NCBI RefSeq assembly: GCF_033547095.1
Contig: NZ_CP137852.1
Coordinates: 5,047,001 to 5,111,000, forward strand
Direction of reading: 5' to 3'
DNA: 64,000 nt
From: Sediminicoccus rosea
Lineage (GTDB): Bacteria; Pseudomonadota; Alphaproteobacteria; Acetobacterales; Acetobacteraceae
Shown here piece by piece: positions 47,866 to 53,525 of the stretch. Below the pieces are notes generated by a model. The model did no database searches, had not been told where the DNA came from, and saw nothing but the letters and a program-made list of their open reading frames with translations. Every line of letters begins with the position of its first letter. The stretch's first letter is position 1. The translations under genes and the position numbers were made by a program.

Positions 47866-48663
47866 GTGGAAAACGCTGCTCCAAACCCGCGGTCTTCAGG
47901 CTCGCTGCATCGCTTCGCCAATCCGGGCCGCTTCCTGCGGCTGACCGAGAGCTGGCTGCCCTGGCTTTCGGGTGCGGCGCTGGTCGTGCTCGGCATCGGG
48001 ATCGTCTGGGGTCTCTGGCTCGCGCCGCGCGACTGGCAGCAGGGCGAGACCGTGCGGATCATGTTCGTCCATGTGCCGATGGCCTGGCTGGCCATGGGGG
48101 GATACATGGGCCTCGCCATCCTCTCCATCATGTCGCTGATCTGGCGCCACCCGCTGGCCGACCTCACGGCGCGGGAGCTTTCGCCGATCGGCGCCGCCGT
48201 CACCGCGCTCTGCCTGCTCACCGGCAGCCTCTGGGGCAAGCCGATGTGGGGCACCTGGTGGGTCTGGGATGCGCGGCTGACGTCGGTGCTGGTGCTGTTC
48301 TTCCTCTGGCTCGGCCATGCCGCGCTGGTGCGCGCCTTCGACGACCCGGAGCGCGGCGCGCGCATGGGCGCGATCCTCGCGCTCGTCGGCGTGGTGAACG
48401 TGCCCATCGTCAAGTTCAGCGTGGATTGGTGGAACACGCTGCACCAGCCGGCTTCGGTGACGCGGCTCGACGCGCCGGGCATGCATGTGGACATCCTCTA
48501 CCCGCTGCTCTGGTGCACGCTCGGCTTCACGCTGGCCTTCATGGCGGTCACGCTGGCCGCGACGCGCGCCGCCGTGATGGAGCGTCGCGTCCGCGCCCTG
48601 CAGATGGCCGCCGCGCGGCGCGCGGATGCGAGCCCGGGCCAGATGCGGAGTGTGGAGGCATGA
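47866..48663 (+). CDS. ccmC: Heme exporter/handling protein CcmC
   Basis: 265 residues, six membrane helices, with the heme-handling signature GTWWVWDARLTSVLVLFFLWLGH (core WGTWWVWDARLTS) in the periplasmic loop between conserved histidines (FVHVPMAW before, NTLHQPASV after). CcmC loads heme onto CcmE. GTG at 47866 is the start consistent with the family; frame upstream is not conserved. It begins the ccmCDEFGHI operon; ccmA and ccmB are not beside it. Confidence 0.9.
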   Translation: MENAAPNPRSSGSLHRFANPGRFLRLTESWLPWLSGAALVVLGIGIVWGLWLAPRDWQQGETVRIMFVHVPMAWLAMGGYMGLAILSIMSLIWRHPLADLTARELSPIGAAVTALCLLTGSLWGKPMWGTWWVWDARLTSVLVLFFLWLGHAALVRAFDDPERGARMGAILALVGVVNVPIVKFSVDWWNTLHQPASVTRLDAPGMHVDILYPLLWCTLGFTLAFMAVTLAATRAAVMERRVRALQMAAARRADASPGQMRSVEA

Positions 48664-48677
48664 GCGCACACCTCGGG

Positions 48678-48811
48678 GAATCCAGCCGCAAAACAGCCGG
48701 CGCCACCCAACCGGGCGCCTGGCCCAGCGCGCCGGCAACGCGGCGAAGCCAAGGCGGCAGGGTGCGCGCGTCGTGCCGAAGTCGCGCCTCCGGCGGGACG
48801 CGCCTGAGGGC
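48678..48811 (-). repeat. Interspersed repeat copy A, between ccmC and ccmD (inverted)
   Basis: Read on the minus strand this segment contains GCCCTCAGGCGC, CTTGGCTTCGCCGCG and CCGGTTGGGTGGCGCCGGC in order, ending GGATTC. The same blocks, in the same order, occur on the plus strand at 52153-52260 inside ccmH. The copy here is about 26 nt longer between the first and second blocks. It fills most of the 154-nt gap between two otherwise tightly packed genes. Confidence 0.75.
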
Positions 48812-48817
48812 GGCAAC

Positions 48818-48958
48818 ATGACCCTCTCCACACACTGGCTGCACGTCATCGCGAGCTGGGCCGCCGTTCTGGGCGTCTTCGCCGCGCTCGCCCTCTCCGC
48901 ACTCGGTCGCCATCGCGCGGCGAAGCGGCAACTCGCCCAGCTGGAACGGCAAAAATGA
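48818..48958 (+). CDS. ccmD: CcmD, small membrane protein of cytochrome c maturation
   Basis: 46 residues with one membrane helix (HVIASWAAVLGVFAALALSAL) followed by the basic tail RHRAAKRQLAQLERQK, the usual CcmD layout. CcmD helps release holo-CcmE from CcmABC. It overlaps ccmE by 4 nt (ATGA), while 154 nt separate it from ccmC, a gap occupied by the inverted repeat copy A. Confidence 0.85.
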   Translation: MTLSTHWLHVIASWAAVLGVFAALALSALGRHRAAKRQLAQLERQK

Positions 48959-49572
48959 CGCGCAAGAAGCGCCGGCTCTACATCCTCCTGCTTTGCGCCA
49001 TCGGCCTCGGCAGCGCCACCGCGCTGACGCTGACGGCCTTCCAGGACAATCTCGTCTTCTTCCGCTCGCCGTCCGACATCGTGCGCGAGACGCCGCCACC
49101 CGGCCGCGCCTTCCGCCTGGGCGGCCTGGTCGAGGAAGGCAGCGTGCAGCGCCAGGGCGAATACCAGGGCCGCCCGGCGATCCATTTCCGCGTGACCGAC
49201 GGCGCGCATGCCATCCCCGTCGTCTTCACCGGCGTCCTGCCTGACCTGTTCCGCGAGGGCCAGGGCGTGGTGACGCAGGGCGTGATGGGCGAGGACGGCA
49301 CTTTCCGCGCGCGCGAGGTGCTGGCCCGCCATGACGAGACCTACATGCCGCCCGAGGTGGCCGATGCGCTGAAGCGTTCCGGCCACTGGAACCCGGCGCA
49401 GGGCGCGGCCCCGGCGCCGGCCACCTGGAACACGCTGGATCCCGCGCGCCCCGGCGCGACCGACCCCGCGCGCCCCGGCGCGACCGACCCCGCGCGCCCC
49501 GGCGCGACCGACCCCGCGCGCCCCGGCGCGACCGACCCCGCCCGCACCCAACCGCCGAGGAGCGGCTCATGA
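48955..49572 (+). CDS. ccmE: Heme chaperone CcmE with repetitive C-terminal tail
   Basis: 205 residues. One N-terminal helix anchors an OB-fold domain; the heme-binding motif HDETYMPPE places the covalent His at 126 and the axial Tyr at 130. After about residue 155 the chain becomes a tandem repeat of the octapeptide DPARPGAT, four copies, ending with a partial. The usual CcmE tail is flexible and poorly conserved, so the repeats probably leave heme delivery intact. It is coupled to ccmF by a 4-nt overlap. Confidence 0.9.
   Translation: MTRKKRRLYILLLCAIGLGSATALTLTAFQDNLVFFRSPSDIVRETPPPGRAFRLGGLVEEGSVQRQGEYQGRPAIHFRVTDGAHAIPVVFTGVLPDLFREGQGVVTQGVMGEDGTFRAREVLARHDETYMPPEVADALKRSGHWNPAQGAAPAPATWNTLDPARPGATDPARPGATDPARPGATDPARPGATDPARTQPPRSGS
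49438..49533 (+). repeat. 24-nt tandem repeat, 4 copies, within ccmE
   Basis: Four head-to-tail units of 24 bases encode DPARPGAT. Copies 2-4 are identical at the DNA level and copy 1 differs by one base (GAT for GAC); a partial fifth follows to about 49548. Near-perfect identity points to recent expansion and likely copy-number variation between strains. Confidence 0.9.
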
Positions 49573-51554
49573 TCCCCGAACTCGGCCATTTCGCGCTGAT
49601 CCTGGCGGCGATGCTCGCCATCGCGCAGTCCATCCTGCCGCTCTGGGGCGCGCAACGCGGCGATGTGCGGCTGATGGGCTCGGCGGCGCCGCTCGCGGTG
49701 GCGGGGCTCATCGCCATCACCATCAGCTTCGCGGCGCTGATCTGGGCCTATGTGACCAACGACATGACGGTGGTGAACGTCGTCGCCAACAGCCACTCGG
49801 CCAAGCCGATGCTGTTCAAGGTCACCGGCGTCTGGGGCAATCACGAGGGCTCGCTGATTCTCTGGGTCATGGTGCTGGCCGGCTGCAGCGCCGCGGTCGC
49901 GGCCTTCGGGGGCGCCTTGCCCTCGGCCCTGCAGGCCCGCGTGCAGGCTGTGATGGGCATGATCCTGCTCGGCTTCCTCGCCTTCATCATCTTCACCTCC
50001 AACCCCTTCGAGCGCATCTGGCCGCCACCGCCCGATGGCCAGGGGCTGAACCCGCTGCTGCAGGATATCGGCCTCGCGATCCATCCGCCGCTGCTCTACA
50101 TCGGCTATGTCGGCTACGCCGTGACCTTCGCCTTTGCCGTGGCCGCGCTGATCGAGGGCCGCGTGGACGCCGCCTGGGGGCGCTGGGTGCGGCCTTGGTC
50201 ACTCGCCGCCTGGTCCTTCCTGACCATGGGCATCTCGATCGGCTCCTGGTGGGCCTATTACGAGCTGGGCTGGGGCGGCTACTGGTTCTGGGACCCGGTG
50301 GAGAACGCCTCGCTGCTGCCCTGGCTCGCCGGCACGGCGCTGCTGCATTCGGCCATCGTGGTCGAGAAGCGCGAGGCGCTGAAGATCTGGACGGTGCTGC
50401 TGGCGCTGCTGGCCTTCGCGCTCTCGCTGCTCGGCACCTTCCTGGTGCGTTCGGGCGTGCTGAACTCGGTCCATTCCTTCGCTTCCGACCCGGCGCGCGG
50501 GCTCTTCATCCTCTGCCTGCTCGGCATCTATGTCGCGGGCGCCTTCGCGCTCTTCGCCTGGCGCGCGCCGGCCATGGCGCCAGCCGGCGTCTTCGCGCCG
50601 ATCTCGCGCGAGGGCGGCATCGTGCTGAACAACCTGCTGCTGTGCTCGATCACAGCGGTGGTCTTCGTCGGAACGCTCTATCCGCTCTTCCTCGACCTGC
50701 TGACGGGGCAGATGATCTCGGTCGGCCCGCCCTTCTTCAACGCGGCGACGGCGCCCCTGGCACTCCCGCTGGTGATGGCCATGGCCGTCGGGCCCATGCT
50801 GGCCTGGAAGCGCGCGAGCCTCTGGCCCGTGCTGCAACGCCTCTGGTGGGCCGCCTGCGTGGCGCTGCTGGCCTTCATCCTGACGCTGGCGCTGGCCGGC
50901 TGGCATGTGCTGAGCGCGCTTGGCTTCGCCTGCGCCTTCTGGCTGCTGGCGGGCGCCGTGGCCGACATCGCGGACCGTGCCGGCGTGGGGCGCACGAGCC
51001 TCGGCAATGCCTGGAACCGCGCGCGCAACCTGCCGCGCGCCGCCTGGGGCGCCGCCATCGCCCATGCGGGCGTGGGTGTCACCATCCTCGGCATCTCGGG
51101 CATGGGGCTCTCCACCGAGAAGCTGGTCGCGGTGCCGCCCGGCGGCTCCACGACATTTGCCGGCTATGAATGGCGGTTGGAGGGCGTGCGCGATTTCGTC
51201 GGCCCCAACTTCACCGCCCGCAAGGCCACCATCACCGTGCTGCGCGACGGCCGCGTGGTGCATGTGATGGAGCCGAGCAAGCGCTACTTCCCGACCGGCC
51301 GGATGACGACGACCGAGGCCGCGATCCGCACCTCGCCGGCCGGCGACCTCTACGCCGTTCTTGGCGAGGAGCGGGCCAATGAGGCGGGCGTGAACGAGGC
51401 GGTGCTGCGGCTGCACAACAACCCGCTCGCGCCCTGGATCTGGATCGGCGCGGGCATCATGGCCCTCGGCGCCGCCTTCTCGCTGAGCGACCGGCGCATC
51501 CGCATCGCCGCCCCCGCAAGGCGGCGGAAGGAGGAGGCGGAGGCGCCGGCATGA
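49569..51554 (+). CDS. ccmF: Cytochrome c heme lyase subunit CcmF
   Basis: 661 residues, multi-helix membrane protein with the WWD-type motif WGGYWFWDPVENASLLPWL and conserved histidines around it (HPPLLYIGYVG, LLHSAIVVEKRE). CcmF with CcmH and CcmI ligates heme to apocytochrome CxxCH motifs in the periplasm. A large periplasmic domain (GLSTEKLVAVPPGGSTTFAG) precedes the last helix. It overlaps ccmE and ccmG by 4 nt each. Confidence 0.94.
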   Translation: MIPELGHFALILAAMLAIAQSILPLWGAQRGDVRLMGSAAPLAVAGLIAITISFAALIWAYVTNDMTVVNVVANSHSAKPMLFKVTGVWGNHEGSLILWVMVLAGCSAAVAAFGGALPSALQARVQAVMGMILLGFLAFIIFTSNPFERIWPPPPDGQGLNPLLQDIGLAIHPPLLYIGYVGYAVTFAFAVAALIEGRVDAAWGRWVRPWSLAAWSFLTMGISIGSWWAYYELGWGGYWFWDPVENASLLPWLAGTALLHSAIVVEKREALKIWTVLLALLAFALSLLGTFLVRSGVLNSVHSFASDPARGLFILCLLGIYVAGAFALFAWRAPAMAPAGVFAPISREGGIVLNNLLLCSITAVVFVGTLYPLFLDLLTGQMISVGPPFFNAATAPLALPLVMAMAVGPMLAWKRASLWPVLQRLWWAACVALLAFILTLALAGWHVLSALGFACAFWLLAGAVADIADRAGVGRTSLGNAWNRARNLPRAAWGAAIAHAGVGVTILGISGMGLSTEKLVAVPPGGSTTFAGYEWRLEGVRDFVGPNFTARKATITVLRDGRVVHVMEPSKRYFPTGRMTTTEAAIRTSPAGDLYAVLGEERANEAGVNEAVLRLHNNPLAPWIWIGAGIMALGAAFSLSDRRIRIAAPARRRKEEAEAPA

Positions 51555-52141
51555 GCGATGTGGTGAAACCGGCGCCCAAATCCTCGCGCCGCAAGCTGCT
51601 GCTCTTCGCCCCGCTCGGCGTCGCGGCCGCGGCGGGCCTGGGCTTCTGGGCCATGCTGCGCGGCCTGCAGGATGGCAGCTTCAATCCGCGCGGCGTGCCC
51701 TCGGCCCTGCTGGGCAAGCCGCCGCCGGAATTCAGCCTGCCCGCGCTCGACAGTTCCGGCCTGCCGGCCCTGGCATCGGGCGATTTCCGGGGACTGCCCG
51801 GCCCGGTCGTGGTGAATTTCTGGGCCAGCTGGTGCGCGCCCTGCATCATCGAGCACCCGCATCTCATGGCCTTGCAGCGCCAGGGCGTGCCGGTCTGGGG
51901 CGTGAACTACAAGGACCGCCCGCGCGAGGCGCAGGCCTTCCTGACGCGCCACGGCAACCCATTCGCCCGCCTCGGCGTGGACGAGCCGGGCCGGGTCTCG
52001 ATTGACTGGGGCGTCTATGGCGTGCCCGAGACCTACATCCTGGATCGCGGCGGCATCATCCGCTGGCGCTTCGCAGGGCCCCTGACGCCCGAACTCATGG
52101 CGCAGGACGTACTGCCTCTCCTCCGGCGGCTTGCCGGATGA
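51551..52141 (+). CDS. ccmG: Thiol:disulfide interchange protein CcmG (DsbE)
   Basis: 196 residues: an N-terminal membrane anchor and a periplasmic thioredoxin domain with the active site WCAPC (Cys95, Cys98), the family insert GVNYKD, and cis-Pro GVPETY. It keeps apocytochrome CxxCH cysteines reduced. Its stop overlaps the ccmH start (ATGA at 52138-52141). Confidence 0.92.
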   Translation: MSDVVKPAPKSSRRKLLLFAPLGVAAAAGLGFWAMLRGLQDGSFNPRGVPSALLGKPPPEFSLPALDSSGLPALASGDFRGLPGPVVVNFWASWCAPCIIEHPHLMALQRQGVPVWGVNYKDRPREAQAFLTRHGNPFARLGVDEPGRVSIDWGVYGVPETYILDRGGIIRWRFAGPLTPELMAQDVLPLLRRLAG

Positions 52142-52734
52142 GATTTTTTGACGCCCTCAGGCGCCGGGCGCGCGCTCCGCGCGCTTGGCTTCGCCGCGCG
52201 GCGGGCGCGCTTGGCCATGCCTCCGGTTGGGCGGCGCCGGCCGCTGTGCGGCCGGATTCTCATTTGGCTGGCCCGTTGCTGCTGGCGTTCGCGCTGCTGT
52301 CGGCCGCCCCCGCCTTCGCCCAGATCGGTGACACCACCTACCGCCTGCGCGACCCCGCGCAGGAGCAGCGCGCGCGCGAGATCGGCAAGGAGCTGCGCTG
52401 CCTCGTCTGCCAGAACCAGTCCATCGAGGACAGCGACGCCTCCCTCGCGCGGGACCTCCGCCGCATCGTGCGCGAGCAGGTGGAGCAGGGCGCGACCGAC
52501 GAGCAGGTGATGCGCTTCGTGCACGAGCGCTACGGCGATTTCGTGCTGCTGCGCCCCCCCTTCCGCTGGAGCACGCTGCTGCTCTGGGCCACCCCGGCCC
52601 TTGCCCTGCTGGGCGGGCTCTTCGCCATTTGGCGCGCGCGCCGGCATGCGAACCCGACCGGCATCGGGCCGACCGAATTGACCGAGGCCGAGCGCCAGCG
52701 ACTCGCCGCATTGCAAGGTGAACCGAAGGCGTGA
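52138..52734 (+). CDS. ccmH: CcmH with an N-terminal insertion derived from an interspersed repeat
   Basis: 198 residues. The functional part is normal: a signal sequence (GPLLLAFALLSAAPAFAQ), then the thiol motif LRCLVCQNQSIEDSDA (Cys88, Cys91) and a C-terminal helix. Between the first five codons (MRFFD) and the signal lies a 36-residue Arg/Ala-rich stretch, residues 6-41, encoded exactly by repeat copy B. A TTG at 52264 after the insert could restart translation with a clean signal peptide. Otherwise the extension must be tolerated in front of the signal. Confidence 0.9.
   Translation: MRFFDALRRRARAPRAWLRRAAGALGHASGWAAPAAVRPDSHLAGPLLLAFALLSAAPAFAQIGDTTYRLRDPAQEQRAREIGKELRCLVCQNQSIEDSDASLARDLRRIVREQVEQGATDEQVMRFVHERYGDFVLLRPPFRWSTLLLWATPALALLGGLFAIWRARRHANPTGIGPTELTEAERQRLAALQGEPKA
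52153..52260 (+). repeat. Interspersed repeat copy B, inserted in frame in ccmH
   Basis: 108 nt (36 codons) matching copy A (48678-48811, minus strand) in order: GCCCTCAGGCGC, then CTTGGCTTCGCCGCG, CCGGTTGGGCGGCGCCGGC and GGATTC. Near its end CCGGCCGC and GCGGCCGG form a hairpin. The length keeps the ccmH frame open. It looks like a small palindromic repeat element rather than a transposon: no transposase is near. Confidence 0.78.
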
Positions 52735-53525
52735 TGTGGTTGGCTCTGGGCCTGGTGGCCGCGCTCATTCTCTCGCCGCTCGCCTATGCGGTGCTGCGCC
52801 CGCCCCGCCCGCGCGGCCGGGGCGAGGCCGACATGGCGCTGTTCCACGCGCAACTCGCCGAACTCGAGGCCCAGCGCGCCGAAGGTCGCCTGGATGAGGC
52901 CGCCTTCAAGTCGGCCACCGTCGAGGTGCAGCGCCGCCTGCTGGCCGCCCCAGCCCCGGAATCGCTGAACGCGCCCGGGCGCCCCTCCCTGCTGCTGCTG
53001 GCCGCCCTCGCCCTCGTGCCGGTCGCCGGCGTGGTGCTCTATGTGGAGCGCGGCTTCCCCGACATGCCCTCGGCCACGCTCGCCGTCCGGCAGGAGGCCG
53101 ATGCGCAGGACGAGGCGATGATCACGCAGCTGCGGGCCCGCCTCGCCACGGCCGATCCCAACACGCAGCTTGGCCGCCAGGGCTTCATCCTGCTCGGCAA
53201 TGCCGAGCGCAACCGCGGCCGCCTGGCCGAGGCCGTCGCCGCCTGGGAAAAGGCGCTCGGCGGCGGCTTCGATGTAGGCCTGGCCGGCGACGTGGCCGAG
53301 ATCGAGATCGAGCTGAATCGGCCCGAGAACGCGCTGCGCTGGATCACGCGCGGCCTCGCGCTGCAACCGCAGGATCCCCGGCTGCGCTTCCTGGGCGGCC
53401 TCGCCGAGGCGCGGGCCGGCCGGGACACCACGGCGCGTGCCATCTGGACGCAACTGCTGGCCGATGCGCCGGCCGACGCACCCTGGCGCAACATCGTCGA
53501 GGAACGGCTCCGCGGCCTGAACTGA
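52734..53525 (+). CDS. ccmI: Cytochrome c biogenesis protein CcmI (CycH), short form
   Basis: 263 residues: helix, LFHAQLAELEAQRAEGRLDEAAF cytoplasmic segment with the coiled-coil typical of CcmI-1, a second helix (SLLLLAALALVPVAGVVLY), then a periplasmic TPR-like region (QGFILLGNAERNRGRLAEAVAAWEKAL). CcmI presents apocytochrome c to CcmFH. Many alphaproteobacterial CcmI proteins approach 400 residues; this one has a shortened CcmI-2 part. ATG 52734 overlaps the ccmH stop (TGATG). Confidence 0.85.
   Translation: MWLALGLVAALILSPLAYAVLRPPRPRGRGEADMALFHAQLAELEAQRAEGRLDEAAFKSATVEVQRRLLAAPAPESLNAPGRPSLLLLAALALVPVAGVVLYVERGFPDMPSATLAVRQEADAQDEAMITQLRARLATADPNTQLGRQGFILLGNAERNRGRLAEAVAAWEKALGGGFDVGLAGDVAEIEIELNRPENALRWITRGLALQPQDPRLRFLGGLAEARAGRDTTARAIWTQLLADAPADAPWRNIVEERLRGLN

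Follow-up and report, generated by a model that had tools for sequence, protein, structure and literature searches.

The 5' end of ccmH in Sediminicoccus rosea raises the question of how a segment resembling the reverse complement of the ccmC-ccmD gap came to lie in frame within a coding sequence, and whether it is translated there. The window, the whole stretch of 64,000 nucleotides that was analysed, corresponds to C1:5047001-5111000 within the 5.14-Mb genome. The ccmG/dsbE-type thioredoxin gene (51551..52141, plus strand; Redoxin/AhpC-TSA match) is followed by ccmH (52138..52734, plus strand), whose start ATG at 52138 overlaps the ccmG stop as ATGA, and the TGA (52139-52141) lies 11 nt ahead of the GCCCTC end of a repeat, called element A. 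This copy 1 spans 52142..52265 on the plus strand (125.3 bits against the covariance model, genome-wide E 7e-26), and its conserved core (52153-52259), with GCCCTC at 52153 and GGATTC at 52259, forms the in-frame ccmH codons 6-41. The frame is open throughout and the Pfam CcmH match covers residues 50-192, in agreement with the preliminary description, in which the remainder of the gene was regarded as intact and the insert as lying in frame ahead of the signal sequence; there are close relatives that lack the insert.

A second copy of element A is present on the minus strand at the ccmC-ccmD junction, 48672..48822 (covariance model 52.2 bits, E 7e-9). Between the two, 52168-52259 aligns with the reverse complement of 48678-48769 over 92 ungapped nt at 80% identity (E about 1e-19 within the window), and the local alignment score of the segments is 98, whereas 2000 shuffles reached at most 40, ruling out chance similarity. 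As seen by BLASTN, both copies also share an extra block of 17 nt towards the GCCCTC end, being split from the 92-nt match in copy 2 by a nested 34-nt palindrome, GCGTC...GACGC (48768..48801, plus strand). The reverse-complement relation proposed earlier is thus upheld, with the covariance model reaching slightly past its limits of 52153-52260 and 48678-48811 on both copies. Regarding the nested palindrome, it is the single regex match in 569 kb of sequence from this genome; palindromes similar to it, in or beside elements, were seen by eye in the ccmH leaders of L066, L080, L100 and L116, other genera included.

The ccmH segment belongs to an interspersed family. A BLASTN search with it returned 55 genome matches at E<=10, the weakest being partial or chance-level, with identities between copy 1 and other copies of up to 91%. 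The covariance model, built from 51 copies, gave 105 matches at E<=0.1, from which the 95 at E<=1e-4 were taken as the copy set, leaving out the ten with E>1e-4, and these 95 copies form 76 sites once tandem copies are merged. The copies fall into two length classes over the model, of about 124 and about 99 nt, where the shorter class keeps the 5' module and carries other hairpins behind it. At nine of the 76 sites, two to four copies are arrayed in tandem, the period being 117-121 or 88-95 nt, and unequal crossing-over can lengthen such arrays. The array at C1:4883255-4883736 holds four nearly identical copies where G009 (L056, L236) has one, which suggests tandem growth by unequal exchange at this site, and a further array of four copies in L208 (2685-3469) begins directly downstream of the tmRNA gene. 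The search for further copies called for by the preliminary description was also positive in relatives, as BLASTN matches at E<=0.001 were found in each of the 21 genus genomes (this one included; panel of 41). Model matches at E<=1e-5 occur in 22 of 160 Acetobacteraceae genomes, representing 15 of the 102 sampled genera, and a class sample gave model matches in 12 of 190 genomes, mostly of the shorter type at 38-62 bits. Plasmid carriage of the element was considered and rejected, since PLSDB held no match to the window copy at 1e-5 and none to an L294 stretch at E<=1.

The position of the copies follows a rule. With gene borders taken from a home-made codon-usage caller, which sets the ccmH start at 52276 and overlooks ccmD, the GCCCTC end lies <=12 nt from a called gene at 58 of the 76 sites, compared to 2 of 76 for the other end, and the median distances to a gene are 7 and 57 nt, respectively (Wilcoxon p 1.9e-7). 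No site is wholly within a called gene (0/76), two overlap one, and divergent gaps hold four. The GCCCTC end faces a stop codon at 51 sites and a start on the other strand at 25, and the sequence upstream of this end is T-rich, with T at -5 in 73% and at -4 in 75% of 81 copies. In three genomes belonging to two other genera there were 43 matches, which were reduced by merging two L346 neighbours and omitting the second L338 match, and 40 of the resulting 41 sites were usable, one having no right-hand gene. Here, the GCCCTC end lies <=12 nt from a gene at 20 of 40 sites, compared to 1 of 40 for the opposite end (p 6e-4), no site is in a divergent gap (0/40), and an ATG is found 8-9 nt after GAGGGC at 12 of the 16 start-facing sites, so that in these genera the rule is weaker for stops but upheld for starts.

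At the start-facing sites of S. rosea, an ATG lies 5-8 nt past GAGGGC in 21 of 25 cases, compared to 4 of 51 stop-facing sites (as CAT). A called start, that ATG or another, lies 6-8 nt past the motif at 16 of the 25, and for the five sites with the called start elsewhere the frame of the ATG was checked for ccmD alone; among the 564 called genes, 125 have GAGG between -18 and -4. At ccmD (48818-48958, Pfam CcmD match), the GAGGGC of copy 2 is followed by a 6-nt spacer and the ATG at 48818 (48806..48820, plus strand). In L059, whose CcmC is 96% identical, ccmC and ccmD overlap as ATGA without an insert, and the element is equally absent from this junction in L063, L065 and L067; the reversed element is present in the window, L060, L062, L064, L066 and, by eye, L071, and the element-bearing junctions have a new ATG about 6-8 nt after GAGGGC. 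Due to the motif itself, its spacing and a spacer with no room for another, GAGGGC likely serves as the Shine-Dalgarno motif of start-facing copies. Similar elements are also found in the ccmD-ccmE gap of L082 (by eye), L100, L105, L116 and L125.

The ccmG-ccmH junction was compared among 99 ccmH loci, 98 of them usable (L127 omitted). The nearest named ccmH relatives are Roseococcus sp. and other Acetobacteraceae, among the best 80 of 203 matches, a set of 80 loci in which Neoroseomonas-like and Roseomonas-like sequences are over-represented. Short leaders (<85 nt) are present in 61 of the 98, each with a junction start that is in frame, so that the stretch is not carried by all orthologues, the comparison that the preliminary description had proposed. 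In the insert-free relatives, ccmH starts at the overlap with the ccmG stop and the signal sequence follows directly; in the window and in L059/L267, the element lies in frame between the overlap and the signal sequence, the L059 leader keeping its frame despite 12 nt lost in helix 2. Apparent remnants in the same frame are seen in L063/L268 and L066/L270, and L100 and L116 carry the element in another frame, open from the overlapping start. A different palindrome pair, AGGTCCAGGAGG...CCTCCTGG and AGAGGGC...GCCCTCT, occupies the same ccmG-ccmH site in the leaders of L060-L062, L264-L266 and L269.

Among the 37 long leaders, 36 have an open in-frame start overlapping or beside the ccmG stop; in L132, the long leader lacks an overlapping start. 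After removal of six identical leaders, 29 of the 31 distinct ones, all from Acetobacteraceae, fall in the length class of the overlapping start, and 19 of 21 distinct leader lengths keep the frame (binomial p 8e-8 against 1/3), with lengths being a rough proxy for independent events. All 31 are open in the core frame, compared to 18 and 17 in the two remaining frames. The long leaders cannot be counted as independent samples, and those of L099, L102, L123 and L130 contain no recognisable insert. Such conservation of frame suggests, and is good evidence from sequence comparison, that the leader is translated from the junction, whatever the function of the added residues. Between the window and L059, dN and dS are 0.072 and 0.052 in the leader and 0.058 and 0.282 in the ccmH core, the dN/dS of the leader being far above that of the core; the leader amino acids are weakly constrained and the leader may be merely tolerated.

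An in-frame start running open through the element is present in two of 52 co-directional junction entries, ccmH and a gene for a PF09608 membrane protein. In the latter, the element follows a TAATG overlap and lies in the same frame as in ccmH, with a leader peptide nearly identical to that of ccmH. Among the PF09608 orthologues, the element is visible in 7 of 19 and the overlapping start is in frame in 5 of these 7. In L297 and L298 the overlapping start is out of frame, and an ATG is found past the 3' end of the element, preceded by GAGGGGG or GGAGGGGGG; L298 also has an in-frame GTG 5 nt past the stop. This junction was therefore repaired in two ways.

Taken from these comparisons, the origin of the ccmH leader is probably a structured gene-border repeat that was placed after the ccmG stop and became an in-frame translated part of ccmH. 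Copies of this small, structured non-coding repeat, found in Roseococcus and related Acetobacteraceae, sit at gene borders, the GCCCTC end turned towards the gene. Beside a stop codon the element lies in sense direction, immediately after the stop; beside a start codon it is reversed, its GAGGGC end on the other strand probably acting as a ribosome-binding site. Since the ccmG stop and the ccmH start share the ATGA, an ordinary after-stop placement puts the element inside ccmH, in codons 3-42. With ccmH initiating at the overlap, only frame-keeping inserts would survive selection, the outcome being an in-frame leader peptide ahead of the CcmH signal sequence.

Regarding structure, RNAalifold on 51 copies gave four helices, in which 98.9% of 1215 cells are standard pairs and 10 of 24 pairs changed on both sides, with a covariation score of 0.171 compared to 0.037 in shuffles, which ignore relatedness, and 0.006-0.029 with slid partners. 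On the plus strand of copy 1, helix 1 (52153..52169) pairs GCCC 52153-52156 with GGGC 52166-52169 and hardly varies, hence being outside the covariation test. The compensatory changes occur in the other three: helix 2 (52170..52184, GCGCGC-TCC-GCGCGC) has four pairs with two-sided changes, helix 3 (52192..52236, CGCCGC 52192-52197 with GCGGCG 52231-52236) has two, and helix 4 (52237..52255, CCGGCCGC-nnT-GCGGCCGG) has four. Single-sequence folding gave z values of -1.97 and -2.11 for copy 1 and about 0 for copy 2, so the structure rests on the alignment. G-U and A-C pairs occur at similar rates, 25 and 20 of 2002 pairs in the genome's own copies and 5 and 3 of 1544 in those of relatives; thus, a strand preference of the structure was rejected, neither strand being favoured as folded RNA, with either RNA of one strand or hairpin DNA as the possible target of selection. 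A known RNA family was rejected as well, since Rfam 15 gave 0 matches at E<=1 in 48500-52800 of the window and no match across the element in seven other loci.

A different reading of the ccmH 5' end would keep the element purely intergenic, with ccmH starting at GTG 52246, TTG 52264 or TTG 52276 and the N-terminal addition being an annotation artefact. The family is nearly always found between genes, the codon-usage caller chooses the last of these starts, and L297 and L298 show that new starts can arise after an element; moreover, the in-frame GTG (52246..52248, plus strand), located in the last hairpin (loop and arm), is ATG in L059 and would give a short signal peptide. However, the TTG (52264..52266, plus strand), which the preliminary description had offered as an alternative start, is TGG in the nearest relative L059/L267, the ATGA overlap is retained in both the window and L059, and the keeping of frame in 29 of 31 distinct long leaders would be unexpected if the leader were untranslated. 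The ATG at 52138 is favoured by these leader frames, and a downstream start seems improbable. More plausible, yet still the lesser possibility, is that the element is selected as a functional mRNA structure, for stability or attenuation at junctions, leaving the ccmH leader as a by-product. The compensatory changes in three helices, the rarity of divergent-gap sites in this genome and in the three from other genera, and the L208 array beside the tmRNA gene are in line with such a role, whereas the similar G-U and A-C frequencies and the occurrence of the element in both orientations speak against it, and hairpin DNA during transposition would yield the same covariation.

The placement could also be due to dedicated machinery that targets junctions through T-runs or stop and start codons, rather than to selection filtering insertions. 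The tight GCCCTC end, the loose other end and the T-rich 5' neighbourhood would fit such targeting, which is nevertheless rather unlikely: a Y1 transposase (PF01797) was found in 0 cases in this genome and in 1 of 21 genus genomes, which also led to the rejection of RAYT/Y1 mobilisation, and the few empty sites established neither exact insertion boundaries nor a clean target duplication. Clean empty counterparts were found for only two of the genome's own sites. With regard to the target site duplications and terminal inverted repeats of MITEs (ERIC, Correia and the like), ATGA-like sequence flanks the insert on both sides at ccmC-ccmD, which could result from start/stop selection, and at ccmH there is none. 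By eye, some copies show candidate terminal inverted repeats, with GCCCTCAGA at the 5' end and a weak TCTCGGAGGGTG at the 3' end, which is poorly conserved (79 copies). The element was probably mobile in the past. Going beyond the preferred origin of the leader by insertion after the ccmG stop, one may tentatively picture a travelling translation module, a border-targeted repeat giving a ribosome-binding site or an N-terminal leader by orientation and repeatedly uncoupling or extending overlapping, translationally coupled genes, although this wider view is doubtful.

As for known systems, insertion of RPE and REP units into ORFs, with N-terminal cases and doubts on their translation, is treated in the consulted portions of PMC10969869 and PMC3733652, the latter noting that many repeats at ORF N-termini are possibly non-coding, with the start lying downstream; ERIC-type units fused to ORFs appear in the portion consulted of PMC2759123. 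The preliminary description had compared the insert to the Rickettsia palindromic elements, and the likeness holds for the in-frame position at ccmH, the length of about 100-150 bp, the palindromic structure, the in-frame protein additions and the alphaproteobacterial host (PMC10969869, PMC3733652, in those portions). However, RPE are described there as very often located in ORFs, and the present family is overwhelmingly intergenic, which sets it apart by description. With ERIC / RU-1 and similar repeat units of enterobacteria, the element shares a size of about 127 bp, intergenic location, hairpins and occasional intragenic fusions beside signal/membrane segments (PMC2759123, same portion), but differs in sequence and hosts, and a start-anchored end supplying a Shine-Dalgarno motif is not part of the ERIC / RU-1 description in that portion.

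The GTAG/CGTC-tagged REPs, as presented in the same portion of PMC3733652, are likewise palindromic, mostly between co-directional or convergent genes and near ORF ends, where they at times provide stop codons or N-terminal codons. In contrast, the element is a unit of about 110-124 nt with four helices and no RAYT-type transposase. The CGTC-tagged stem of that account has 8-9 bp with A-T as first and second pairs, a loop of 4-5 and a CCA tail, whereas the stems of the element are almost all G-C and helix 2 has 6 bp and the loop TCC. Caulobacter CIRs are also long intergenic repeats of alphaproteobacteria (PMC10969869, same portion) and are associated with GANTC, by the title of a work cited therein; GANTC is present in only 28 of 95 copies of the element (2.10 per kb versus 0.89 per kb in own stretches), being the one feature by which element and CIR were compared. 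The element was not found in literature on Roseomonas/Roseococcus repeats, motif strings and Shine-Dalgarno/overlap repeats, as covered by titles and abstract openings and thinly for subscription papers. The kind is known (Rickettsia RPE, intragenic ERIC/REP); the family and its unusually strict rule of placement appear to be new.

A single overlapping-start junction followed through many species turns length modulo 3 into a comparative test of repeats adding coding sequence. It also suggests a route by which overlapping bacterial genes can be separated without loss of translation, as well as how N-terminal extensions ahead of signal peptides recur.

An orientation bias relative to replication was rejected, with 41 of 76 sites pointing the way that was tested (p 0.57); a higher-scoring subset, picked after seeing the data, gave 25 of 36. 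Along the chromosome, 60 of the 76 sites are in the half nearest the origin (p 4e-7), 38 in the nearest quarter and 6 in the farthest, with the origin placed at 0.1 Mb from a weak GC skew. Other repetitive stretches of the window are four 24-nt tandem repeats encoding DPARPGAT units in the 3' part of ccmE (49438-49557) and dense 12-nt-register repeats at 1596-1873, apparently a low-complexity coding region.
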